The notes beneath the pieces were generated by a model. The model was given only the letters and a program-made list of their open reading frames with translations. It was not told the DNA's origin and searched no databases. 64,000 nt of DNA from Thalassia testudinum (taxonomy: Eukaryota; Streptophyta; Magnoliopsida; Alismatales; Hydrocharitaceae), in assembly GCA_037157565.1 (NCBI GenBank), contig JAZHRO010000036.1:23052501-23116500 (forward strand). The letters run 5' to 3'. Within the stretch, counting starts at the first letter, position 1; the number at the start of each line of letters is the position of its first letter. Positions 3,820 through 44,684 of this stretch are shown here, piece after piece. The translations under genes and the position numbers were made by a program.

Positions 3820-4376
3820 GTAATACTCTCCCTAAGAATGCATGCATAGTCTTCCCTAGATCCATTAATGCATATCCTTTATATTAGCTAGAATTAGTAT
3901 TACAATTTCCATGTACAAGCTTTCTTCTAGAATCATTATAATGACAATATTTTTGGAGAAATAAAAATCAACAGTTGCTTGCTGCATAAGATATATATAT
4001 TGCAACAAACATGTTGGTTCCTGAAAATAATAACGATCTTGCGATTGCTGCATTTTCTATTAACAGCCATCGTGAAGTGAGAATTTTGTGCACTAGCAGA
4101 CACACTTTCACATTTATTGTTTATCTAACGCATGCACACATAGTTAGGGTTAACAATGCAACTGGCGAAACATACATTAGCAGACTCAAAACCAGCGTAC
4201 AATTTGAAGCTAAGAAAGGTAAAAAAAAACTAAGAATCAATTTCACTATTATTTACCTCCTTAAGATCGACTGAGACTCACTGTCTCATTATTAATTTTC
4301 CTTGGAGTTGTGATTTGCGCTATACTACGACATGTTTTCTACTTATATCTACATTTTGCGACATCAACAAAACTCA
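3820..4376 (+). repeat. E2 5' LTR remnant, family A (R/U5 end)
   Basis: This is the 3' end of a plus-strand LTR cut by the insertion of E1 at 3819/3820. It aligns with the E7 LTR near 42590-43130 (shared GAATGCATGCAT, ATGTACAAGC and GAAATAAAA blocks in the same order) and, more weakly, with the E4 LTR near 18360-18984. It contains the conserved LTR reading frame (4011) and a GAGAC-TCACT-GTCTC hairpin at about 4272-4286. The degenerate PBS follows. The U3 part and LTR start are missing. Confidence 0.7.
4011..4274 (+). CDS. LTR-embedded small ORF, copy 1 (65 conserved codons plus extension)
   Basis: An ATG opens a frame of 87 codons. Its first 65 align without a gap to frames in the LTRs of E4 (18616, 26078) and E7 (42772). 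About 38 of 65 residues are identical to the E7 copy. Conserved blocks are AFS at 14-16, HTF at 31-33, YLTHAH at 38-43, an Arg at 46 and QF at 64-65. Where the other copies stop after QF, this one reads through into a lysine-rich tail. No known domain is recognised; there is no signal peptide and no convincing membrane segment. It lies in the R/U5 part of the LTR, about 100 nt before the PBS, so it would be an early ORF of the genomic RNA. Function unknown. That it was translated is inferred from the conservation pattern. Confidence 0.6.
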   Translation: MLVPENNNDLAIAAFSINSHREVRILCTSRHTFTFIVYLTHAHIVRVNNATGETYISRLKTSVQFEAKKGKKKLRINFTIIYLLKID

Positions 4377-13000: not shown

Positions 13001-15152
13001 TTTTTGATGATTTGGCTGGCATTTCGGTGTGCATATTTACTTCAAAAATTTTTCCTAGGCTAGGATGTTCTCAATAGCCTCAAGGAGTGGTATGTTCACT
13101 TGGACTTGCTTTAGAATCTCAAGCCACTCCTTAGATTGGTTGGTTTTCTTTTCCCTGGGTTTGATCAAGGCCTCAAGAAAAGGTGCTTGAGAGAAATCAT
13201 GAGTATTCAAATCCTGAGTCTTGTTTTCTAGATTAGCTTCGTCTCCCAGGTCAGATTCAGGCTCCTCAAGATCTTGCTAAGATTTTGACGTAGAAGGATC
13301 TTGGGTTTGTTTCCCACTTCTCAAAGTGACAACACAAGCATGTGCATTAGGGTTAGAAGGTTAAGGTTCATTTTGTAAGATGGGTTGATCCCGGGTTGGG
13401 TTAGGATTAACAAATCCTAGTGGGTGCTGGGGAGTAGGCTGAATTAGGTGTGCTTGTTGCTCCTGTGTGTTGTGTCGATTAACCCTATTGAAGTTCCTTG
13501 GGTTTGGGATGGGTTGGATGGCAACATCCCGTGTTGTCTAGCATCTACTAGCTGGTCCAGTCGTTCCGTCAATTCTATCCTCAAATGATTCATTTCTTCT
13601 TTATGACTTAGGTTCATCTCTCTCATTTCTTTGAGGACCAAGCTTAGATTAGTGGGCTGGTTTTCCTGAGTAGGTTGTGGCTGGTATGTGCACGGTTGTG
13701 TGTACCTACTAGGTTGCCCATAAGTGTTTGGCTTAGTCAAGTTAGGACCCTGGGTAGGTTTCTGACTTGACCAAGGAAAGTTAGGATGGTTGCACCATCT
13801 AAGGTTGTAAGTGTTTGAATAATGCTCATTTCTAGTGTAACCCTGGAGTGCATTCACATCCTCAAGATAACTAGGCATTGGGCTACCTAGTTGAGAATTC
13901 GAGGGCATCAAGGTCCCTCCTTGGTACCCAGAAAGAGATGGGTCCATGTACAGTTGGCTCATAGGTGGAGTCATGGTAAGGTAATTAATGTTGTACACTA
14001 TTTCTTAACCCAAAGTGTTGGGGAACTGGTTGTTGGTTAATATAAGCACTCCTTGGTTAGGCATAGGATTTAATTTGGATTGTGTACCTAAGGAATTCCC
14101 TCCCTATAGAAGGTTATCCAGCTTCTTATCCAAATTCTCCACATTCTTTCACATGAGTTCCACCTTATCTAATTGTTGTGCAATTAGCTCTAAATCAACC
14201 AAATTTGAATTATTGTTAACTTCATAAACTCCGCTCCTTGGTTGATTATCTTTGTTAAAAGCAGACATTGAGGCATTGTTGAGGGAATTTTCACTCATAT
14301 TCTTAAACAATTGAAAGGCTCCCTCAGCATCTCGAGTCAGGAAATTGCCCCCACATGTCGCATCAACAAAATTTTTCAAATTGTCACTCAACCCATAATA
14401 GAAAATATGGGCCAAGTGCCACTTCGAAATCCCATGATAGGGGCATTTCCTAGTTAAATCATTGAACCTCTCTCAAGCCTCATGTAGTCATGCAATTGTT
14501 CCTCAGGGTTCTGCTTAAAGGTTGTTATGGCACATCTAAGGGCATTAGTTTTTCCTACGGGAAAGAATTTCTTAAGAAATGTGCTTCTCAAGTCTTCCAA
14601 AGTTAGGATTGGTCTACCAATTATCCTCAGCCAATGTGCAGCTCTACCTTTCAAGGAGAATGGGAACATCATCAACATTAGGGTACTTTCATTCATGTTC
14701 CTAGGGCCAAAGGTTCTTCCTATGTGTAGGAGCTCTTCAAGGTGGTGGAAGGGGTCATTTGACTCATTGCCATGAAAGTTGGGAATCAAGTTAATGATCT
14801 AAGGTTTGAGTTCAAAATCTTCCCCATCCTGAGGTACCATAACAAAGGGTTCAGGTCGGGTACTAGGAGGGTTATAAAAGTCACGGAGGGGCCAATCTAC
14901 CCTTCTGTTTTGGAGTCAACTGATGGCCTACACTATGACTTCCATCTGTCGGTCATAATGCTAGCCTTGCTTAGTGATTTTCCTTTGTAAGAGAGTCATA
15001 GGATCCAGATGTTATTCATCAATCTCTTCTTCCTCGTGATGACTAGCCATTGCAGAAGGTTTAGATTCAGATTCTGGATAAATAGGCCTTCTCCTAGGAT
15101 TTCATTCTAATGGTGGTAGCAAATCAAGATTTTGAGATCTTCTACCTTGCAT
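13001..15152 (-). pseudogene. E3 gag (Athila type) and linker
   Basis: A likely start ATG is at 15152-15150 (MQGRRSQNLDLL), in the same frame as the block at 14789. Conserved parts in order: NFHGNESNDPFHHLEELL, MMFPFSLKGRAAHWL and FLKKFFPVGKTNALR (14780-14560), IFYYGLSDNLKNFVDA.CGG (14405-14340), NHPNFPWSS (13775), coiled LKEMREMNLSHKEEMNHL (13640), and VVTLRSGK near 13320 before the protease. Stops and frame changes occur at about 14453, 14148, 14000 and 13443. The product is the capsid/nucleocapsid polyprotein. No CCHC zinc knuckle was seen, which is usual for Athila gags. Confidence 0.85.
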
Positions 15153-16650: not shown

Positions 16651-18016
16651 TGGTTAAGCAGCAATCATAGGTCTTAATTGACCTAAATTAGGATAGAACT
16701 TAGAGTAAGTTAGGGCAATTCATGCATGCATAAGCATTATCTGCATCTTTACTACTTTACTTGAGCTATGCAAAAAATAATGTTATAATGTGATGATTAA
16801 GTGCATTATGTCAATTGCAAGCAATAAGCTGATCTCAAGCTGGATCTGAAGCTGGATCAGGAATAATGGGTGCTGCAGCTAGGCTGGAGCAGAAGACCTA
16901 GATTAGATGTAGTGAATAATAATGTAAGGGAGTTAAGGTATGCCACTCTATTAAGTAGGAATAAAGCAATAAAATGTGAAGAGCTTAGGTCCATCCTAGC
17001 CCTAGGATAGCCTAGAGACTTCACCAAGCCTTAACCACCCTTAGATTAGGTCACCACACAGTAGGAAACCTTAAAACCCTAGTTCCAGCCTTTATCTAGA
17101 CATCCAGATGAATTATAAAACGTCCAGAACTCTTAGCCAACTCCCACACACCTCAAACCCACTTCTGTAGTGTTATTGGACGTTTAGACACTTTGTCAGA
17201 CGTCCAATTTCTGCAGAATACCCGAAACAAAACCTAGAATTCTCCCTGACTCAGATTGGACTTCCAGAACTGAAGTCTAGACTTCTGATTTTTGGGTATA
17301 AGTCGTCTGACTTTGTTTTTGGACGTCTGGGATTGGTCTCCAATTCCTGTTTTGAGATTCAAGCCTTGATCTTGGATCTCTAGCTCCCTAGACCTAATCC
17401 CAACCCCATAGGAACCTAAATTAAGGTGCCCTAACCCAAGTACTTCACCTCTAGACCTCCCTAAGGACCTAATTAGGTCCTCACTAAACCCAATTGACTT
17501 AGATCAAAGTCAATTACCATCACCTAAGCCAATTAGACTCATTGAGTCCAATTGAGCTCAGGTCTCAACCCACATAAGTCCAATTGGACATAGTGAGAGT
17601 CCAATTGACCTAAACCCAACCTAATTGAGTTATTTCACTCTCAATTAGGTTCACACTCATTCAATTAAACTTAGGTTAAGTTTAATTGCAATTTCCCTTA
17701 GCAATTAGTGTTTGCAACCCTAATTCAAGACATACACCTACCCAAACCCTTTAGGACCTAGCCTAGACCTCTTAGCCACCTAGGGCACGACCACACACAC
17801 ACACACACCCATTCACGCACACACATTCCTCTAGAGTTCTCTAGAAATCTATTCAAAGTGGCGCCAACTCTTGGTTGCCAAATTTAGCAACCAAGAGCCA
17901 TTCAATTCTTAGATCCACAAATGGTGGATCTAAGAACCACCTCTCTCTCTCTTGGCTGGCCACTCATGAAGCCCTCTCTAGAGAGTTCCACACTTCTCTA
18001 GAGAGACTCCGTTATG

Positions 18017-18026
18017 TTTATAAAAT
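18017..18026 (+). promoter_or_regulatory. TATA-like box, E4 5' LTR
   Basis: TTTATAAAAT, followed by GACCTAAG(G/C)GGTGGCC. The matching position in the 3' LTR (25483-25494, CTATAAAAAG) and in E7 (42293-42302, CTATTAAAAG) carries a similar box. It likely marks U3/R about 600 nt upstream of the LTR ORF. Confidence 0.55.
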
Positions 18027-18615
18027 GACCTAAGGGGTGGCCATTTGCACCCATCAACTCTTGGCCATCCCATTCTTGGCACTCATCCACTTAGGTTAGC
18101 TACGTCTCCACCTCCACTCTACCTCCACGAGAAGCACCACCATGGAGGCCACCATCTCCACGCCAGGATACTGGATCACCTCTCCAACCTTTCTCCAAGG
18201 GCCGACCTAAGCACCTTTGGCCACCCCTCCTTCTCAACTCAACCATTCCAAGGCCATCGGAGCTCACCTCCGAATCCCTCACTTTCTGATTGATTAGTAG
18301 CTAGTTCTTTATATTTACTACTTTCATTTACTGCTTAGTAGTGTAGTCCTTAATCTCCCCCAATGATGCATGCAAAATCCCCCCGTAGATTCCTGTATGT
18401 GATCGTTTTATGGTAACTTATTTACATTTTCAAGCATTCCTATACAAACTTTCCTCTACATTCCATGCTCCAAATGCTTCTCTAAGTGAATGAATAAAAG
18501 GTACATTTTTATATATGTCTCTATGTTTGAAATCACCATGACCTTATTGGTTGCCATCTTTTCTATGTGATTCAAGTTGCCTATTTTTCACTTGTAGATA
18601 TATTTTGTAACAAGT

Positions 18616-18813
18616 ATGTCGGTTCCGGAAAATATAGAAAACCTAACGATAGATGCATTTTCTGTAAACAGCCACCACGTAACTAGAATTGTGTGCACCG
18701 AAACTCATACCTTTACCTTTGTTATCTATTTAACGCACGCGCACGTAATCAGAATTCGTAATAGAAGTGGCGAAGTCTTAATTTGAAGATTGGAAACAGA
18801 TGTGCAATTTTAA
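18616..18813 (+). pseudogene. LTR-embedded small ORF, copy 2 (one internal TGA)
   Basis: ATG at 18616, 65 codons, then TAA at 18811-18813 after the residues QF. A single TGA at codon 57 breaks it; the 3' LTR copy has CGA there, so this is a simple transition. Conserved residues: AFSVNSH, THTF, YLTHAH, R, LET.VQF. Length is exactly that of the E7 copy. Between this copy and E7, many codons differ only at the third base (for example Thr, His and Ala codons of YLTHAH). It sits about 170 nt upstream of the PBS. Function unknown. Confidence 0.6.
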
Positions 18814-18986
18814 ATAAAGTAGAGAGATAAAAGATCGATTTCAGAATTAAACAAATGCCTCCCAGAGACGAATGACCGGGACTCAAGTCTCATTATTTTT
18901 ACAAACTTATTTTTGATGAACGTTTTTGCATGACAATACTATGATTTCGACGACTTTCAAATGTGCGAGAACAGCTTTCCGTCAAA

Positions 18987-19004
18987 TGGCACCATTGCCA
19001 GGGA
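18987..19004 (+). promoter_or_regulatory. E4 primer-binding site
   Basis: TGGCACCATTGCCAGGGA matches the tRNA-Asp PBS at 15 of 18 positions; all three differences are G-to-A. The next bases GGCAAC pair with (A)TTGCC to form a hairpin with loop AGGGA. Confidence 0.85.
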
Positions 19005-20561
19005 GGCAACGTCATTTTTCTTGATTTCGATCTTTTAAACTTCCACTGACAAATCTGCCTCTACTTTGTTTTTTGATGTGCAGGACAACACAGGAAGAAA
19101 ATGAGATCTGCAACACAACGAGCGCAGAAAAAGAAATCTGGTGCACATCTCTTCTCAAGCTAGATTTCTTCGTAACCCTAGGATTAGATTTGCTTACAGC
19201 AATTTCTTTTTAAAAAAAGAAAAAATTATGCATTTTCATGAAGAAGAAAAAAAATCAAAAAAAAATTCAAAAAAATCTAGACTAGGTTTCTTTTGAATCC
19301 TAGGTTAGTTTGAAAAAAGCAAAAAATATATATATATTTTTGAAACCCCCTTGGAAAAAAAAATTCCTTTTTGAAAAAAAAAATGTGCAAAAGCACTTGA
19401 AAAAAAAACACTTTTGGTGGAAAGTTTGTATTTCATACTCAAACCTTCATTAAAAGCTTCTCCACCATTTCCTATTTTTCGGCCAGATTTCAAAGTCTAT
19501 TTCAAAAATTCGATTACCGAAAAATTAGTTAACAAAAGAATATGACATTCGGGCTAGACCTTCATTTCCAAACCATCTTTCAAGCGGCACCATTATTTTG
19601 AAAAAATTATATGTATAGAATTTTTAAAAATTTACAAAGTGCAACAGGGTCAGACTGACCCAAATCTGAGATTTTTCAAAATTTAAAAAGCAATTTCAAA
19701 CAATCTGGGAATTAGTTTTGACTAAAAATGGTGGGGTTTGAAAGATGATTTCATTAGCTTTATTTTTTGTATTTTTTTCAATTTTTGAAAGTCATTTCAT
19801 ATTGTTTCAAAGTGAAAAATAGACTATAAGTAAAAATTCCAAACCTGACCCCCTGACATTCAAAAATCTCTAAAAATTCAGCTAAAATAGTAAAAATTCT
19901 AAGAAAATATTCTATGAAAGTATAATTGAAAAGGGAATCTACTCATCAAATTTCAAGTTAATTGGATTCCAAATTTTACCAAGGAACTAATTGTAATATT
20001 TGTGGTGTGCTAATGAAGAAAAAAAAAATGAAAGAACAAAATCCTAGAATTGCATGAACCCTAGGTTAAACCTTTAGTGTTACAATTTAGAGACCACATT
20101 TGAGCTAACCTAGACTTAGTAAAGTCTAGTACTTAGCCGGTGAGCTTGGTCACCTTGTGGACCACTCACCAAAAACCCCAACTGAAGAAAAAATGGGCTA
20201 AAAATCAAATCTAAAATAGGAAATCAACCTGAATTCGTTGTCGTACAACTAGGTGCTTTTAACCTCTTGGTTGGGTTAGCCGAGAGGCAGGAATTGCTTT
20301 TATTCAGTTGTACGGCAAATTTTCTTCAGGAATTACAACCTAAAATGAAAAATCTCGTCATTTGATTCATAAGGACCATCTGATTGATAGGACCTTAGCC
20401 TTGTCTAGCTTGGCTACACTAACCCAGGGGTTGGGTGGTGTATGCAAGGGAGGAGGTCACTTAGACCTCAATTGGTTGGACCATGGGAGCTGCTCCCAAG
20501 GAGGCAGGTCACCTCTCTAGGACCATCTTCTCCCCTCACTTCTTCTATTTGCTTAACTACA
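19005..20561 (+). other. E4 leader (no gene)
   Basis: AT-rich non-coding leader with long A-runs (19210-19410) and an ATATATATATAT run near 19327. A block near 20040-20170 (GCATGAACCCTAGGTTAAAC to ACCTTGTGGACCACTCACC) is conserved in E7 at 44048-44168. Another conserved block lies at 20450-20545, just before the start codon. Confidence 0.7.
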
Positions 20562-22204
20562 ATGGCTAACCCTGGATCTGGCCCAAATCAGGATCTAGAA
20601 GAGCTAGAACCATGAGCTTATCTGAGAGCTCGGGTCGCTAAATCAGCTCAACCTTGGGATCAGGACCCAAGGTGGTGAAGATGACTTTTCGCTTCACCTA
20701 ATCCTACTCCTCAGGTTACCTAAATGGTAAACCCATATCTTAACCCTAGATATTATGACCCATACTAGTCAGTCCCTCAAAGGACCGCATCCTGTAACCT
20801 AGGATATGAATTTCATACTCCTGCTTCTCTCCCATGGAATATGGGTAGACCTGATTCACCCCCTGGAACCCCTGAAGAGCTACCGGTGCATATGCGACCA
20901 CATTACAGAATACAGAGAGCTGTAGCAAGCGCTAAGGAGAAGGCCGCATTCTATCTACACGAAATCAAAGCTATCACTGAGCCGAACCAAAGACGAAGTT
21001 GGATTCCACATCAACAGGCTATGAGGGAGCTCCTTCAGGAAACAACAGAGATAACAAGGCTAATTGGACATAATCGGGAAACTCAAGAACTACTGCTTTT
21101 GAGATATTAAGTGGAAAATAGCCTTGAAGACCTCGAAGAATCTGAAAGGACTATACCGGAAGGACACACAGAAGATTCTTAGGAGCAGATGCTGGAAGAG
21201 CTTCCAAGGGAAGAAGAATCTAGCTTGGATATGAGACAGGAGCAGGAAGTATGCCGAATGGATTCATTTGAGAACTCCCTTAAGGAAATTGAGGAGGAAA
21301 GGACTGATATCTCCAAGACTGAGCCACAATCGAATTATCCTAAATCCTAGGAGATACCTCATGGATTAGAAAACCCAACTGAGATAAGGGAAGTAGATCT
21401 AGTTGAGGATATGGATCCTGAGGTAGACAATACATGCAACACTACTAACCAATCTAGGCTGCTTCCTATTGTAGGTGAACCTGTGCTAGAGCAAACATCT
21501 TCTGATCTGCACTCTTCTTCTTTCACCTACATCCCTAATTTGGATGCTAGAGATTTTGAGATGACACTTTCTATCCTTGATCCTGACATCCGAAGACTAG
21601 AAGTAGCTATGGATGTTTTGACCGAAGAAATAAATATGCTACCTGAGGCAGGAATTACTGAGGAACCCAATGCATGTGAGGGTGAAGCTTTGAGCAGAAT
21701 GAGCTTGGAACACACCTATCATCCTAGTCAATGGCTCGACCCCGAGCCTGAAGAGTCAGCCTCCGATGAATTAGAGATGAATACTGATGAGGATGAAGTA
21801 GTTTCTAACAAGGATTTCAGTGACCTCCCCATAGATCTTCTACTTTCACAGATACCCCCATATGACCCAGAGCCTAGAGAGGGCAAGATCTTTGATGTCA
21901 ATATCGTTATGAGGATCCCTATGACTCAGATTCTGGTTTTGAGATACATGTCGTTCTACTTCCTCAGCAACTTCCTGATGAATTGTGGGACATGATAAAT
22001 AAGCTAAATCAACATCGTGATCCCCCTTCTGATTATCCTCTATTTTCCACCACCACTCCACACTTTCTTATAGCTAGACTTTTTGGAGTAGGGTTGCACA
22101 ATCAGCTGGTTCGCATCTCTGAACCACTGATTCTGGGAGCATATGAGCATATCTTTCTCATAATCTTGGTTGGCTCCTATGCTAGAACTGCTACATCTGA
22201 TTGA
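20562..22204 (+). pseudogene. E4 long ORF without retroviral domains
   Basis: The ATG at 20562 opens with MANPGSG, the same start as the E7 gag at 44685 (MANPGPG). One reading frame then runs to about 21900 with eight premature stops (TGA/TAG/TAA, near 20613-21350) but no frameshift. A shift of one base near 21900 moves it to the frame ending at 22204 (YEDPYDSDSGFE, then LHNQLVRISEPL). The middle is acidic; YDPEPRE lies near residue 433. No capsid, protease, RT or integrase motif is present. The ending resembles that of E10 (LHHQLANI) and the acidic part matches E3. It occupies the place of gag-pol. Function unknown; it may have been a trans-acting or packaging-related protein. Confidence 0.6.
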
Positions 22205-22446
22205 GTTTTTGCCCAGCTGGAGGCGTTAAACTCAGCATCTACTCCACATCCATCACCCTATACATATTCATTTTTATACATAGCATATTCTTCTTTTAGC
22301 ATATTTTCTTTCTGTATATTGCATACTGACAGGTTGGCCGGTGCTGAATGTGTACTTTTAGGAGTAATTATAAGTGATTTCTACCCATTCTCTCCCTGTT
22401 GTATTTATTTTCTTTTATATTCATGCATGAGGACATGCAAGAACTT
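22205..22446 (+). other. E4 post-coding region
   Basis: Contains CCCAGCTGGAGGCGTTAAACTCAGC near 22213-22236, the counterpart of the GCGTTAAACTTAGC block after the coding part of other elements. No gene is seen. Confidence 0.5.
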
Positions 22447-22462
22447 AGGCATGGTAGGGATG
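22447..22462 (+). promoter_or_regulatory. E4 upstream PPT-like tract
   Basis: AGGCATGGTAGGGATG, preceded by GAGGACATGCAAGAACTT. It lies 1.7 kb upstream of the LTR-adjacent PPT and corresponds to the second tracts of E2, E3, E8 and E10. Confidence 0.5.
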
Positions 22463-22906
22463 ATACAACAAAAACTGAAAATTTTTATGCCAACATTTAG
22501 GAAAACCTCGGAGCTACATGTAAAATGTACTTTAGAACCCTAAATAAAAGGAAAATCAACTCCACCTCCAATGCTCGCATTGGAGCTAGAAATCATCCGC
22601 AACAACCATTTCCGACTCACTCGCTCACCTCTTATTCTAAATTTAGGGTCAAGCTGAATGTAACCTGATACAGCAATCTCATGAAGTACAAACATAAGAG
22701 GTCACTTGTTTATAGCATATATACATATTACATTCATGAATAAGATTATTTTATTAAGAGAATGCATTAGGGATTCTATCCTCTAGTTGATTCTTGTAAT
22801 ATGGAATCCAGCACAACTTTTCACACACACGTAGAATTTGCAATGGATTCACAGTGAAGGCTGATAAGAAGTATTTTGGGAGTCAGGCAGATTTTCCTCC
22901 AAAAAT

Positions 22907-23809
22907 CCACCAAATAGTATGAGATGAGAGTAGAGTGTACTGGTGCTCTAAGATTAGTGCAAGGAATCTGGAATCCTAGATAATAGGTGATTATACTCAG
23001 AGATTAGACATAATTTTCGCTCTCGGTTCCTGCGTATACATTTTGTGAGAAATTTTGAGAGCCACCAAATAAGGCAAATATGCGGAGAGTGAGTTTTCAT
23101 AAAACTAGGGCTAAGGTGGATGGTTACGGCCATTATTTACAGAATCCTTAGTTGAAGGAGGGTATTGATGCTAAGGTCAGAAATACACCGTCCTATCCAT
23201 CTCTCCCAGTGTCGTGAGTAGGCACCTCCACCAAATAAGCCACCCAATGTCTCTTGATTATCACCAATCCCTAATAATACCTCCTCAATAAAGTCCATGG
23301 ATGTGTGCTAGTTGTGTTATGTTGAAAAAAAAAGAGAAAAAAAATAAAAGAAATGATGAAAAGAAAGAAAAATTGAAAAAAAAAATTAGGAAAAGAAGAA
23401 AAAGCAAAGAAAGAAGAGTGAATATTTAGTTCAGTTGCATTGAGGCAATACCACCAAATAAATTTGAGATCCACCAAATATGGCCTTAACCCACCTTTCT
23501 TGTGTTTCTGACCGCCCGAATACTGGCTGAGGAATTCCAACTTAGTGTTAGGGTTATGGAAACTCAATTAAAGTGTTAGTGCCAAGTGAGACCACCAAAT
23601 ACGGATCATATGTGTGAATCTGGTGAGATTCTGAGCTCTAAGAAAAGAAAAGAAAAAGAAAAAGAGAAAGAGATCATGACTACAAAGGAATCAAAAGAGA
23701 GCATGGTTTTTCTCGTCTTTCTCTAAGTTGAGTGACTTAGTAATCTGGGAATCAAGATTCTGTAGTACTAATTTCTATGTAGCACTAGTCGAGAGTGAGC
23801 CACCAAATA
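22907..23809 (+). repeat. CCACCAAATA repeat array in the E4 3' spacer
   Basis: Seven exact copies of CCACCAAATA, all on the element's sense strand, start at 22907, 23062, 23228, 23451, 23471, 23592 and 23800. The sequence between them is unique, AT-rich and diverged from other elements. Intervals (155, 166, 223, 20, 121, 208) resemble those of E3 read in its own direction (161, 167, 237, 120, 224). No coding potential is seen. A purine-rich tract occurs at 23320-23420 and another at 23640-23700. Confidence 0.8.
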
Positions 23810-24118
23810 TATAATCTTTTCCCCCAGAGATTCTCTACCTAAGCCTAAAGCCGGGATGAAATTCATAGAATATCTTGAATACCTCGAGGGAAGAAGTCCG
23901 CCTATCCCGCTAGAATTTTACTAGGGGCCAAGTACAAGCTATAGAGGTGAATTAGTTTTTCACTCGAATCCATTGCAAATGATAAATAGCTGCACTTTCA
24001 CGATTGTCTGGATTTCTATAGCATAGGATGAAAATAAAAAGGAGAAAAATCTCTATGCAAATACTTGATAAAATAATCAATACCTTAGGGACCCTTCTGT
24101 GAATAATTTAGTTTTGCA

Positions 24119-24154
24119 TTTGCTAGGGACTAGCAAGATTTAGGCACGAGGGTA
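24119..24154 (+). promoter_or_regulatory. E4 hairpin and polypurine tract
   Basis: TTGCTAG-GGA-CTAGCAA (24120-24136), then GATTTAGGCACGAGGGTA directly before the LTR at 24155. The stem is perfect over 7 bp. Confidence 0.8.
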
Positions 24155-26446
24155 TGATTGCACAGCAATCATAGGTCTTAATTGACCTAAATTAGGCTAG
24201 AACATAGCATAAGTTAGGGTAATTCATGCATGCATAAACATTATATGCATCTTTACTGCTTTACTTTAGCTATGCATAAAATAATGTTATAATGTGTTGA
24301 CTAAGTAAATTATGTCAATTGCAGGCAATAAGCTGATCTCAATAATGGGTGCTACAGCTGGGCTGGAGCAGAAGACCTAGATTAGATGTAGTGAATAATA
24401 ATGTAAGGGAGTTAAGGTATGCTACTCAATTAAGTAGGAATAAAGCAGTAAAATGTGAAGAGCTTAGGTCCATCCTAGACCAAGGATAGCCTAGAGACTT
24501 TCCCAAGTCTTAACCACCCATAGATTAGGTCACTGCACCGTAGGAAACCTTAAAACAATAGTTCCAACCTTTATCTGGATGTCTAGATGAATTATAGGAT
24601 GTCCAGAACCCTTCGCCAACTCCCGCACACCTCAAACCCACTTCTGCAGTGTTATTGGACATCCGACACTTTGTCAGAGGTCCAATTTCTACAGAATACC
24701 CAAAACAGAACCTAGAATTACCCCTGACTCAGATTGGACATCCAGAACTAATGTATGGACTTATAATTTTTGAGTATAAGTCGTCTGACTCTATTTTTGA
24801 ACGTCTGGAACTGGTCTCCAGTTCATGTTTTGAGATTGAAGCCTTGATCTTGGATCTCTAGCTCCCTAGACCTAATCCTAACCCCATAGGAACCTAAATT
24901 AAGGTACCCTAACCCTAGTACATCACCTTTAGACCTCCCTAAGGACTTAATTAGGTCCTCACTAAATCCAATTGACTTAAATCAAAGTCAATTGCCATCA
25001 CCTAAGCCAATTGGACTCATTGAGTCCAATTGAGCTCAATCTCAACCCACATAAGTCCAATTGGACTTAGTGAGAGTCCAATAGACCTAAACACAACCTA
25101 ATTGAGTTATTTCATGCTCAATTAGGTTCACACAAATTCAATTAAACTTAGGTTAAGTTTAATTGCAATTTTCCCTTAGCAATTAGGGTTTACAACCCTA
25201 ATTCAAGGCATACACCTACCCAAACCCTTTAGGATCAAACGTAGACCTCTTAGCCACCTAGGGCACGACCACACACACACACACACACACACTCCTCTAG
25301 AATTTGCTAGAACTCTCTTCAAAGTGTCACCAACTCTTGGTTGCCAAATTTAGCAACCAAGAGACATTCAATTCTTAGATCCACAAATGGTGGGTCTAAG
25401 AACCACCTCTCTCACTCTTGGCCGGTCACTCTTGGAGCTCTCTCTAGAGAGTTCCACACTTCTCTAGAGAAACTCCCTTAGGTCTATAAAAAGACCTAAG
25501 CGGTGGCCATTTGCACCCATCCACTCTTGGCCATCCCATTCTTGCCACTCACCCACTTAAGTTAGCTACGTCTCCACCTCCACTCTACCTCCACGAGGAG
25601 CACCACCATGGAGGCCACCATCTCCATGCTAGGATGCTGGATCAGCTCTCCAACCTCTCTCCAAGGATCGACCTAAGCACCATTGGCCACCCCTCCTCTC
25701 AACCATTCCAAGGCCATCGGAGCCCACCTCCGAATGCCCTCACTTTCTGATAGATTAGTAGCTAGTTCTTTATATTTACTGCTTTCATTTACCGCTTATT
25801 AGTGTAGTCCTTAATCTGCCCCAATGATGCATGCAAAATCCCCTCGTAGATTTCTGTATGCGATCGTTTTATGGTAGCTAGGTTTACATTTTCAAGCATC
25901 CCTGTGCAAGCTTTCCTCTACATTCCATGTTGCTAACGCTTCTCTGAATGAATGAGTAAAAGCTACATTTTTATATATTTCTCTATGTTTGAAATCACCA
26001 TGACTTTATTAGTTGCCATCTTTTCTGCATGATTGAAGTTGCCTATTTTTCACTTGTAGATATATTTTGCAACAAGCATGTTGGTTCTGGAAAATATAGA
26101 AAACCAAACTATCAATGCATTTTCTGTAAACAACCACCATGTAACTTGAATTGTGCGCACTGAAACTCATACCTTTACCTTTGTTATCTATTTAAAGCAC
26201 GCAGACGTAATCAGAATTCATAATAGAAGTGGCGAAGTTTTAATTCGAAGATTGGAAATCGGCATGCAATTTTAAATAATGTAGAGCGATAAAATATCAA
26301 TTTCAAAATTAAACAAATGCCTCCCAGAGATGAACGACCGGGACTCAAGTCTCGTTATTTTTACAAACTTATTTTTGACGAACATTTTTGCACGACTATA
26401 CTACGATTTCGATGACTTTCAAATGTGCGAGAACGGCTTTCTGTCA
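24155..26446 (+). repeat. E4 3' LTR, family A (2292 bp)
   Basis: Starts TGATTGCACAGCAATCA and ends TCTGTCA. It is collinear with 16651-18984. Relative to that copy it lacks about 26 bp near 24342 inside a short AGCTGGATC tandem repeat, and it has a longer CA run (25269-25291). TATA-like CTATAAAAAG at 25485-25494. It includes LTR ORF copy at 26078. Confidence 0.9.
26078..26275 (+). pseudogene. LTR-embedded small ORF, copy 3 (3' LTR of E4)
   Basis: 65 codons from ATG to TAA, ungapped against 18616-18813. A TGA at codon 24 replaces the Arg codon (AGA) of the sister copy, while codon 57 is CGA here and TGA there. So the two LTRs carry different, independent nonsense changes and their common ancestor was open. 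Retains AFSVN, THTFTFVIYL and MQF-stop. Confidence 0.6.
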
Positions 26447-40984: not shown

Positions 40985-43132
40985 TGATTGCACAGCAATC
41001 ATAGAAATTGAATGACCTAAATTAAGTTAGAATTTATCATAATTTTAGCATATTTCATGCATCAGCTGCATACTTTGCATCTTTCCTACTTTATTTAGAT
41101 ATTCATGAAATAATGCTATCATAATGTATTGATTAGTGTATTACGTGGTTTGCAGGTAATAAGAAGCTCAGGAGATGGCCTAAAGCTCGATAAAAGCTAG
41201 GTAGAGGCCAAAGCTACAACAGTGTTGAAGCAGAAGCCATAGAATAAAGTTGCACTCAAGCTGAAGGCATGATGTAGGGAAGAGGTAAACTACATTACTT
41301 GTTGGATTTTAATTCTTAGATTGAATTATGAAGAACATAGGGCATCCCTACACCTATCCATAAAGTTAGGATGGCCATTAGCACCTTACTACACCTTAGC
41401 CACCCTTCCATTTGGTCAAAGTACCCTCGAACACCCTAAAACAACTTTCCAGCATAGTTTTGAATGTTCAGACATTAAGTCCAGACATTCAATTTCTGCA
41501 GAAACCCAAGACAGAACCTAGCATCCATATTGATTCAGTATTAGATGTCCAGGATAGGACTTAGACTTCTAATTTTGAAGTATAAGTTGTCTGATCTTAA
41601 GATCCAACATCTGGTACCGCTCTCCTTTTGCTGTTTTAAGAATCAAGCAAAGATCTTGATTCCTAAGGCCTATAAACCCAATTCAACACCCTAAGAAACC
41701 TAATTTAAGGTACCTTAATCCTAGTACACCACCTTAATACCCTCCTAAGAACCTAGTTAGGTTCTCACTAAGCCTAATTGACTTGGATCAAGTCAATTAC
41801 ACTCTACCTAGTCAATTGAACTCATAGAGTCCAATTGAGATCAAATCTCAACCAACACAAGTCTAATTGGACTCAATGAGAGTCCAATTAACTCAAGCCT
41901 AATTGAAATGGGAATTTTCTCTCCCAATTACACACACATTTACTAAATTAAACTTGTGATGAATTTAATTTCACTTATTACCTTAGTAATAGTTTATATG
42001 AACCTATTTTTAGAAACCCACCTAAACGCAATTACCTAGACCTATAGGACTCAACTTAGACCACCTAGATACCACCTAATTGACGCACACATACATACAC
42101 CACTACCACCACTTGGCTGTCCACTCTAGAGTATTCTAGAGTGGTCCTCCAAGTGGTGCCACCTTGAAAACTAAAAGGTCTTCAAGGAGTCCACAACAAT
42201 TTCCTTGGAAAGTGGATCTCATACGACCCACTCTCCATGACTTGGACAGCAACTTAGAATTCCACACTTCTCTAGATAAGCCATCCCCAAGTCTATTAAA
42301 AGAGTCCCATGGACGGCCAAAACTCGAATCATAGACTCCATTCACTCTTCCATCCACGAGCTCCATCACCACCTCCACAACCACCATCTCCACATCTAAG
42401 AGCAAGCTCCTTCTCCACCTCACAAGAGGTCAGCTTACCAACCATTAGTCATCCCTCTATTCCTTCCTACCACCTCTAGCCCACACGGCCACTAGAGACT
42501 ACCCCTGGTGCTCTGATTTTCTATACCTATAGCATAGTTGTTCTTCATATTTATTTTTGGCATTATCATCTTGCTAAGTAGTAGTATTACTCTCTTCAAG
42601 AATGCATGCATAATCTTTTCAAGATCCATGCATGCATATCTTTTCTGTTAGCATAGATTTCCATTTTTCAATGTACAAGCATTCCTCCATAGCCATTGTA
42701 GTGGCATCAAGATTTTAAGGAAATAAAATAAGGTTGCCTACTTCATATTTCCATTTTGTTGCAATAAAAAGATGTCTATTCTAGAAGATATAAGTGATTT
42801 AGCGATTGATGCATTCTCTGTTAAGAGCCATCGTGAAGTATGGATTGTGCAAATGAGCACTCACACATTCCCCTTCATCATTTATTTGACTCACGCACAT
42901 GTTTTAAGGGTTAATAATTTGACTGGCAAATCTCACATTTGTAAACTTGAAACTAACATCCAATTTTAAGTGAGCAAATAAGATAAAAATCAAAAATCAA
43001 ATTTTCCTTCTTATGCCTCCTTGAGATCGACAGGGACACTCATCATCTCGTAAAAAAGTTTTTTTGCTTGAGTTGTATTTCATGCTATGCTATGACACTT
43101 TTAAACCAAATCCTCATTTTACTAACTCAACA
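40985..43132 (+). repeat. E7 5' LTR, family A (2148 bp)
   Basis: Starts TGATTGCACAGCAATCATAG and ends CTCAACA two bases before the PBS. It is diverged from but collinear with the E4 LTRs: ATGTCCAG/GTCTAGAC-type motifs at 41465-41610, CAATTG-type motifs at 41770-41970, TATA-like box 42293-42302, GCATGCAT near 42603, then LTR ORF. The preceding GGTCA (40980-40984) may be one target-duplication copy; the second is off-window. Confidence 0.9.
42772..42969 (+). CDS. LTR-embedded small ORF, copy 4 (intact, 65 codons)
   Basis: An uninterrupted ATG-to-TAA frame of 65 codons at the same place in the LTR as the E2 and E4 copies, ending 165 nt before the PBS. Conserved blocks: AFSVKSHREV, STHTF, YLTHAH, RVNN.TG, LETNIQF-stop. 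About 58% of residues equal the E2 copy although the DNA differs at many third positions. The product would be about 7.5 kDa, His-rich in the middle, with no signal peptide or transmembrane helix that I can recognise. This copy carries no nonsense or frameshift change, while the adjacent gag does. Function unknown. Confidence 0.65.
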   Translation: MSILEDISDLAIDAFSVKSHREVWIVQMSTHTFPFIIYLTHAHVLRVNNLTGKSHICKLETNIQF

Positions 43133-43134
43133 AA

Positions 43135-43152
43135 TGGCATCACTACCGAGGA
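43135..43152 (+). promoter_or_regulatory. E7 primer-binding site
   Basis: TGGCATCACTACCGAGGA followed by GGCAAC, aligned with TGGCGCCGTTGCCGGGGA with five or six differences, mostly transitions. Confidence 0.7.
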
Positions 43153-44684
43153 GGCAACCCAATTTTGGTTTTTGATTTTCGATCTCAATTTTGACAGATT
43201 TGCTTCTGCTTGCTTTTGGGGTGCAGGAACATGAAAGAGTGGATTTTGCGCACACATCAAGTGTAGTTGAAGATTTCAGGTACACACAAAACATCTTAAA
43301 TTTAGGACTTCTTTTAAATCTTAGGATTAGATTTACTTTTTGAAAAAAAGAAGACTGAAAAACTTTGACCAAAATGAAAAAATAATCTGAAAAAAAAAAT
43401 CACAATTCAATTTTCAAAATAAAAAAAGTATTCTTTGAAAAGGCTCATTTTGTATTTGATAGCTCCTTTAAAGGCCTTTCTATCGCTTTTTGCAATTTGG
43501 CCAAAAATTTTTTAGTGATTTCAAAAATCATTTTCTGAATATTTACTCATACAAAAATTATAAAAATGGGGTTGAAGATAGATTTTCAAATTATCTTCCG
43601 AACACCACCATTCATTTGAGAAAATTTAATTTATAGAATTTTTAAAAATTTGCGAGTGAAAGGGGGTCAAACAAACTCAGATATGAAATTTTCTGATTTT
43701 CAAAAAGTGATCCAGAATAGTCCAGAAATCTGATTTGACTAAAATTATGGGGTTTAAAAGATTATCAAGTTAACTTTCTTTCCATATTTTTAGTTAATTT
43801 TTGGAGTATGATTGATACCGTTTCATAAAGGAAAACCAACATGGGGTCAAATTCCAAATTTGATCGCCTATTAGTTAAAATTTCATAAATATTTATTTGG
43901 AATAGCAAAAATTCTAAAAAAATACTCTCAAAATATTATTGAAAATGAAATCTGTGTGGCAAATTTTAAATCATTTGGATTCAAATTGTGTCTTACAAAG
44001 TATTTTTAATTTGATTTGCTGTCAGCTGCCTGAACACTTGGTTAATTGCATGAACCCTAGGTTCAATCTCTAGGGTCATAACTAGAAACCACATTAGAGT
44101 AGCTTGGACTTAATCAAGTTCAGTGACTAGTCATTGAGTCAGGTCACCTTGTGGACCACTCACCAACACCCAAATTGAAGAAAAAGCTTAAGTAAAATTT
44201 TCGTAAAAAACATCAATTAACCCAAATTTGTTAACGAACTACTGGGCCATCACAACCGCTTTAGCCAAACCTAGTGCCAAGTCTGTGGGGTTGTGTCAAA
44301 CGACCGTGTATAAGGGGTATCAAGGACTCGACGGCGAAAGCCAGAGGAAGAATCTTCCCCTTAATCCCATTGTAATAGACTAGCTGGGTTAGCTTAAGAG
44401 GTTGGGATTATTTTCAGTCGGTTTTGTAACAAATTTTTCTTCAAAAATTAGAATCTTAATGAAATATTCGGTCATCCATTATTAAAGACCACTTTATTGA
44501 CAAGGCCTTAGCCTTGTTTGCCTTAGCCACACCAACCTGGGTTAGCTGGTGTATGCAAGGGAGGAGGTCACTTAGATCCCAATTGGTTGGACCTTGGCAA
44601 CCAACCCCAAGGTGGCGAAGGGAACTCATCACATCACCCAGACCTTCTTCTCCTCTATCTTCTTCTCCTACTTGATTAGATGAG
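43153..44684 (+). other. E7 leader (no gene)
   Basis: AT-rich leader, homologous to that of E4 in several blocks (44048-44168, 44505-44650). No coding frame is recognised. Confidence 0.65.

Follow-up and report, generated by a model that had tools for sequence, protein, structure and literature searches.

Some retroviral proteins, among them MMTV Sag and foamy virus Bel, are coded inside the long terminal repeat (LTR), with reading frames that extend to U3, close to the 3′ end of the RNA. The 65-codon ORF analysed here (ORF65) is likewise coded inside an LTR. A second comparison is with plant conserved-peptide upstream ORFs (uORFs): ORF65, too, is short, conserved and placed before a main ORF, but unlike them it is conserved over the full length of its 65 codons, belongs to a mobile element and lies more than 1 kb from gag.

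Plant LTRs are regarded as promoters and terminators, and surveys of extra ORFs, as far as their available text describes, look between the LTRs and apply length limits. Accessory ORFs of plant elements (aORFs or eORFs) are placed in the internal region, on either side of gag-pol and most commonly in the stretch separating pol from the 3′ LTR (PMC7264820, available portion), and the extra ORFs of Retand are described as internal too (PMC11963269, available portion); the same portions of these two papers mention no ORFs in LTRs. The eORFs scored in a 2019 survey had at least 250 codons according to its accessible text (PMC6317226), so that a 65-codon ORF would have gone uncounted. Diaspora is described, in the part of the report at hand, as having an 873 bp non-coding gap between LTR and gag, a tRNA-Asp primer-binding site (PBS) and no other lengthy ORFs (PMC1142308).

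The element that carries ORF65 resembles Athila, Calypso and Diaspora (plant Ty3/gypsy, OTA superclade) in its long LTRs and its order of gag, RT and integrase, and it shares with Diaspora, as far as that report's available text goes, a lengthy non-coding interval separating LTR from gag (PMC1142308); its PBS may be of the tRNA-Asp type that Diaspora has. For these elements the available text describes no ORF inside the LTR. ORF65 resembles plant aORFs and eORFs in being an extra conserved ORF borne by an element, but it is found in both LTRs of one element (E4) and so falls outside the internal region. Among open-licence papers, searched by title and start of abstract, no report of a similar ORF was found.

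ORF65 in the window and its host element

The window, the whole 64-kb stretch of DNA that was analysed, contains four copies of the frame, all of which translate within LTRs where the original prediction had placed them. The copy in E7 (42772..42969, +) is complete, with 65 codons and a stop. Those in the 5′ and 3′ LTRs of E4 (18616..18813 and 26078..26275, both +) carry TGA at codon 57 and codon 24, respectively, and the E2 copy (4011..4205, +) is open for 65 codons and runs on, its stop codon replaced by TTT GAA. Three of the four, those of E7 and E4, end in QF-stop, as had been noted. A profile search of the 64 kb found no copies besides these.

The E7 LTR (TG...CA, 40985..43132, +, borders set by eye) extends 163 nt beyond the ORF65 stop codon, and the PBS (43135..43154, +, read from sequence) lies 165 nt beyond it, 2 bases past the LTR; the site is similar in most flank-anchored copies inspected. 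This PBS resembles what we take to be the tRNA-Asp type. That ORF65 lies inside the LTR follows from E4, where comparison of the LTR pair (16651..18984 and 24155..26446, both +, 89.4% identical) places a frame in each; the E4 internal region (18985..24154, +) was compared with a stretch downstream of another ORF65-bearing LTR, L071. Because of this position, ORF65 is copied into both ends at each insertion.

Alignment of the four copies revealed no indel, and 38 of 65 residues (58%) are identical between E2 and E7, both in line with the earlier reading of the sequence. The motif YLTHAH, which had been called invariant, is not: E4b has YLKHAD instead. The two E4 LTRs do carry different nonsense changes, and it is reasonable to suppose an open parent, since the codon that is a stop in one LTR is a sense codon in the other, although both stops recur elsewhere (codon 57 in L073, L082 and L092; codon 24 in L081). 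The claim that neighbouring LTR sequence is far less alike stood only in part: E2 and E7 are 24-42% identical further upstream, but 52-80% in the adjoining windows as against 68-71% in the ORF. Between E4 and E7, identity is 59-67% in ORF windows and 37-59% in adjoining ones. The ORF is marked out by its codon pattern and scarcity of indels, not by raw identity.

L071 contains gag (PF03732), RT (PF00078) and integrase (PF17921) in separate broken pieces, in the Pfam order Retrotrans_gag, RVT_1, Integrase_H2C2 and with RNase H-like tblastn matches between RT and integrase; RT_RNaseH and Integrase_H2C2 adjoin E2. This gene order, gag followed by RT, RNase H and integrase, identifies the host as a Ty3/gypsy element. 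In L071, the LTR end is ~1.3 kb from a block that E4 and E7 also have (L071 1711-1881) and ~1.7 kb from the first gag-like match; the other 9-kb stretch, L072, showed no gag-pol in the orientation of the element. The RT motif may be Athila-like. A second RNase H, the marker of Tat in the available text of PMC6317226, was absent from nine scanned L071 pieces, which are incomplete. The host element is perhaps Athila-like, which we offer as a lead.

E4 resembles L071 in its leader and 3′ part, and no gag-pol was found in its internal region, where ~1.6 kb of other sequence (20637-22197) takes its place. Such a non-autonomous body is carried by E4-type elements (20769-22201 in the window, L093:1024-2292, and L097) and has a frame of its own, open for 423 codons in L093; its pieces are ~70-85% alike among copies, and the three E4 pieces scanned gave no Pfam match. 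The leaders of gag-bearing and non-autonomous elements have a block in common (44463-44672 and 20409-20612), a candidate packaging or other cis signal. Elsewhere in the window, Rfam matched the plant snoRNA snoR71 at 14429-14543 (+; 43.6 bits, cut-off 40), on the strand opposite to a piece matching the gag region of L071 (14457-14798, -). This match and the type of element both point to a plant as host.

Protein-level selection on ORF65

Searching the 4.26 Gb genome with the E7 protein gave 12,100 candidates, and with the divergent member L062 11,557; both are first-look figures and not verified copy numbers. The 150 scored E7 matches all had E <= 9e-20 and mostly listed no internal stop, and the 150 scored L062 matches ranged down to 45% identity, many with stops. 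Three sets were chosen by the ORF: L001-L020 (the top 20 of 40 matches to ORF DNA, E7 itself aside), and L021-L040 and L118-L137 (20 each out of 150 protein matches, all from rows without a stop). Two were anchored in the flank: the E7-type set L041-L070 (30 of 40 matches to 42970-43170, L041 being E7) and the E4-type set L073-L092 (20 of 40 matches to 18814-19010). L008 and L011, with shifted frames, were excluded from pairwise dN/dS, group codon-position and conservation counts. As five copies were sampled twice, the 92 full-length frames amount to 87 distinct ones. Choosing many copies by ORF similarity or freedom from stops lowers dN/dS and inflates the open fraction: 69 of the 87 are stop-free, 40 of them picked for that, as against 29 of the remaining 47.

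The original prediction had proposed selection at the protein level in the element lineage, and dN/dS, indels and the other reading frames, the three points it had named as able to refute it, all support it when compared on many more copies. dN/dS is well below 1. Across 42 copies the pairwise median is 0.15 (median dS 1.05), with medians from the closest to the most distant pairs of 0.37, 0.27, 0.12, 0.12, 0.14 and 0.15; saturated pairs were excluded throughout, and the distant ratios are rough since third positions have almost saturated (mean pS 0.68). Whole-tree maximum-likelihood (ML) omega is 0.39 for 46 distinct stop-free copies and 0.27 for 25 divergent ones, on trees that include terminal branches, probably largely neutral, and with a choice of stop-free copies that lowers omega. 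pN/pS is 0.43 in frame, as against 0.84 and 1.07 in the shifted frames.

Within the window, differences at codon positions 1, 2 and 3 number 19, 11 and 29 for E2/E7, 22, 14 and 36 for E4a/E7, and 20, 14 and 30 for E2/E4a, but 6, 8 and 8 for the E4 LTR pair. A third-position excess between elements and not within the pair is expected if selection acted before insertion and change since then has been nearly neutral. Position 3 also diverges more than positions 1-2 in all seven groups of at least three copies (ratio 0.42-0.81). E4-type copies differ from others by 21.0, 15.0 and 36.2 per codon position, and among themselves by 8.7, 6.4 and 12.1.

In the E7-type anchored set (29 copies and E7), codon-phase divergence is 0.30/0.27/0.44 in one half of the ORF and 0.24/0.22/0.42 in the other, a periodicity reached in 0 of 2000 permutations for either half. 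None of five flank windows in the same copies was significantly periodic (p 0.13-0.81), nor was any of six LTR windows at 41460-42053 in another set of 31 copies (p 0.12-0.92). An LTR block of E7 in this region (41658-41954) has a divergence of 0.20-0.25 in 31 copies, shows no codon periodicity and may be a promoter or other regulatory part; it seems at least as conserved as ORF65, judged on a different copy set. The surrounding E7 segment (41460-42100) matches the E4 LTRs at 17176-17806 and 24675-25284.

Relative to E7, the 29 flank-anchored copies have 13 indels in the ORF (9 non-triplet), 253 (207) in the 300 nt upstream and 94 (85) in the 163 nt downstream, shared indels being scored once per copy; per base, frame-breaking indels are ~11- to 15-fold rarer in the ORF than in the flanks. 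The E4-type copies (21 rows, against E4a) have 10 in the ORF (3 non-triplet), 87 (77) upstream and 35 (35) downstream. The remaining two sense frames show no conservation: they average 6.2 and 6.7 stops and are stop-free in none of the 87 distinct copies, while the antisense frames are stop-free in 7, 2 and 0. Each of 20 divergent copies, chosen from stop-free rows, stays open for all 65 codons; the frame terminates at codon 66 in 19 of them, and 17 start with ATG. Taken together, these sequence comparisons show the frame to be protein-coding and to have been under purifying selection across a wide range of element lineages.

This pattern bears on the suggestion that ORF65 is a DNA or RNA element, such as a promoter, packaging or dimer signal, which is open by accident; the flanks and the LTR block at 41658-41954 are likewise well conserved, but codon periodicity, the few indels and the absence of stops from one frame only leave this strongly disfavoured, and RNAalifold predicted no structure in 20 divergent ORFs, with low power at such divergence.

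The predicted product and its possible roles

Conservation covers the whole chain and is maximal at residues 31-49. The most conserved residues among the 87 distinct copies are F33 (86), H31 and F35 (85 each), F65 (84), and T34 and N49 (83 each), followed by L39 and H43 (81 each) and I7 and T32 (80 each). Such a distribution is as expected of a folded protein. AlphaFold gave a helix at 7-15 and strands at 21-26, 32-40, 43-48 and 54-58 from three sequences (mean pLDDT 45.3) and a different model of two helices from a single sequence (46.5). With means this low any fold is a guess, and one helix with four strands is perhaps the arrangement, as a hint only.

No significant Pfam match was obtained (best E 0.03 among 29 copies; MU2_FHA against E7 ORF65 scored 13.7, below the cut-off of 29.2). 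The ORF65 profile matched nothing in the PDB up to E 10, and E7 alone gave one match (E 3.8). No relative appeared in two scans of IMG/VR viral contigs or in a protein search with four ORF65 sequences. The one significant match among 5.8 billion proteins in a wider search was P0002 (E 1.7e-25), 70 aa from a 1,026-base JGI metagenome contig, which makes it unlikely that the family is an artefact confined to a single assembly.

Of 62 copies (the ORF-chosen sets and the window), 54 have ATG as codon 1, 53 of these with A at -3. In the same 62 copies, ATGs number 0.45 per copy in the 50 nt upstream, as against 0.74 in shuffles, and 3.45 as against 1.57 at -200 to -100; given this abundance further upstream, ORF65 would be the first ORF only if transcription begins close to it. 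In L071, 16 ATGs precede gag, counted from ORF65 to position 1700.

We consider it rather probable that translation of the leader yields ORF65 as a small accessory protein. The frame would be transcribed from the LTR promoter within the genomic RNA's 5′ leader, and ordinary scanning would suffice for its translation from a start codon with A at -3. The small folded product of 65 residues would then serve as an accessory factor in the element cycle, with Gag/RNA or a host factor as its target. For gag-pol, which lies more than 1 kb farther downstream with many AUGs ahead of it, translation would work differently, from a spliced RNA or an internal start.

The chief rival, which we judge unlikely yet worth serious attention, is that ORF65 is a conserved-peptide uORF whose nascent chain, or reinitiation after it, gates gag-pol translation, with no free protein made. 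It would fit the place of ORF65 in the presumed 5′ leader, ahead of gag in L071, and the good start context, the conservation at the peptide level and the fixed length of 65 codons with F as the last residue in 84 of 87 distinct copies. In arrest peptides conservation usually lies towards the C-terminus, but here it peaks mid-chain, and positions 62-63 are poorly conserved, their commonest residues occurring in 38 and 41 of 87 copies. Simple reinitiation at gag is also unlikely without splicing, because of the 16 intervening ATGs in L071.

Splicing could also make ORF65 a first exon, joined in frame to downstream sequence in a longer protein. Behind the PBS there is an acceptor-like TGYAG (43200-43290 in the window and the equivalent in L045-L070; the AG is conserved in 15 of 21 copies inspected by eye), and ~50 nt past it a donor-like AG/GTAC, so that a spliced leader mini-exon is possible. 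In two sets of copies, however, the codon after the 65th is a stop (36 of 42 and 19 of 20), and a donor directly after it was rejected as weak, GTRRG occurring within 35 nt past codon 65 in 10 of 62 copies against a shuffle mean of 5.2 (s.d. 2.3). We therefore regard a first exon as improbable.

Copies without an intact frame and their meaning

Of the E4-type frames, only 3 of 22 are open. A deletion of ~150 bases in ORF65 is common to 7 of 20 E4-type copies, with gag downstream in L076, L085, L086 and L089 and a non-autonomous body in L083, L084 and L090; LTR and body types are thus mixed. Since the seven differ among themselves, the ORF-less LTR has multiplied, and their existence means that element copies spread without ORF65. 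The 12 typed E4-type copies lacking that deletion (11 fetched, including L077 with an extra base, and E4) comprise 8 with gag and 4 without. L075 has a different, partial deletion and carries gag, and the L074 stretch (L095) matches neither body. Five E7-flank copies were typed: L045 and L054 have gag, L062 is non-autonomous, and L046 and L060 gave no match. Coupling of ORF65 loss to gag-pol loss, which the first four copies fitted (two each way) and which would have meant that both are complemented in trans together, was not borne out by this wider typing.

A protein formerly needed and now dispensable, with selection only ancestral and the frame decaying, would account for the few open E4-type frames and the spread of the deletion class. 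This too we find very improbable, as 17 of 30 E7-type frames (29 flank-anchored copies and E7) are still full-length and open and the third-position excess holds in 7 of 7 groups. If ORF65 encodes an accessory protein, that protein may be supplied to ORF-less elements by other copies, or may be useful but non-essential.

The fuller picture, on which we are evenly divided, is of a protein family not described before, apparently numbering thousands of copies in this genome, whose coding sequence lies entirely inside the LTR of one lineage of plant retrotransposons and whose product acts in trans as an accessory protein, so that the spread of ORF-less copies would be parasitism on ORF65-bearing relatives. 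Natural copies with and without ORF65 within one element lineage offer ready test material. If this picture is true, the LTR, usually deemed non-coding, carries a gene that is doubled at every insertion, and plant LTR retrotransposons would possess small accessory genes, like those of retroviruses, that annotation has overlooked.
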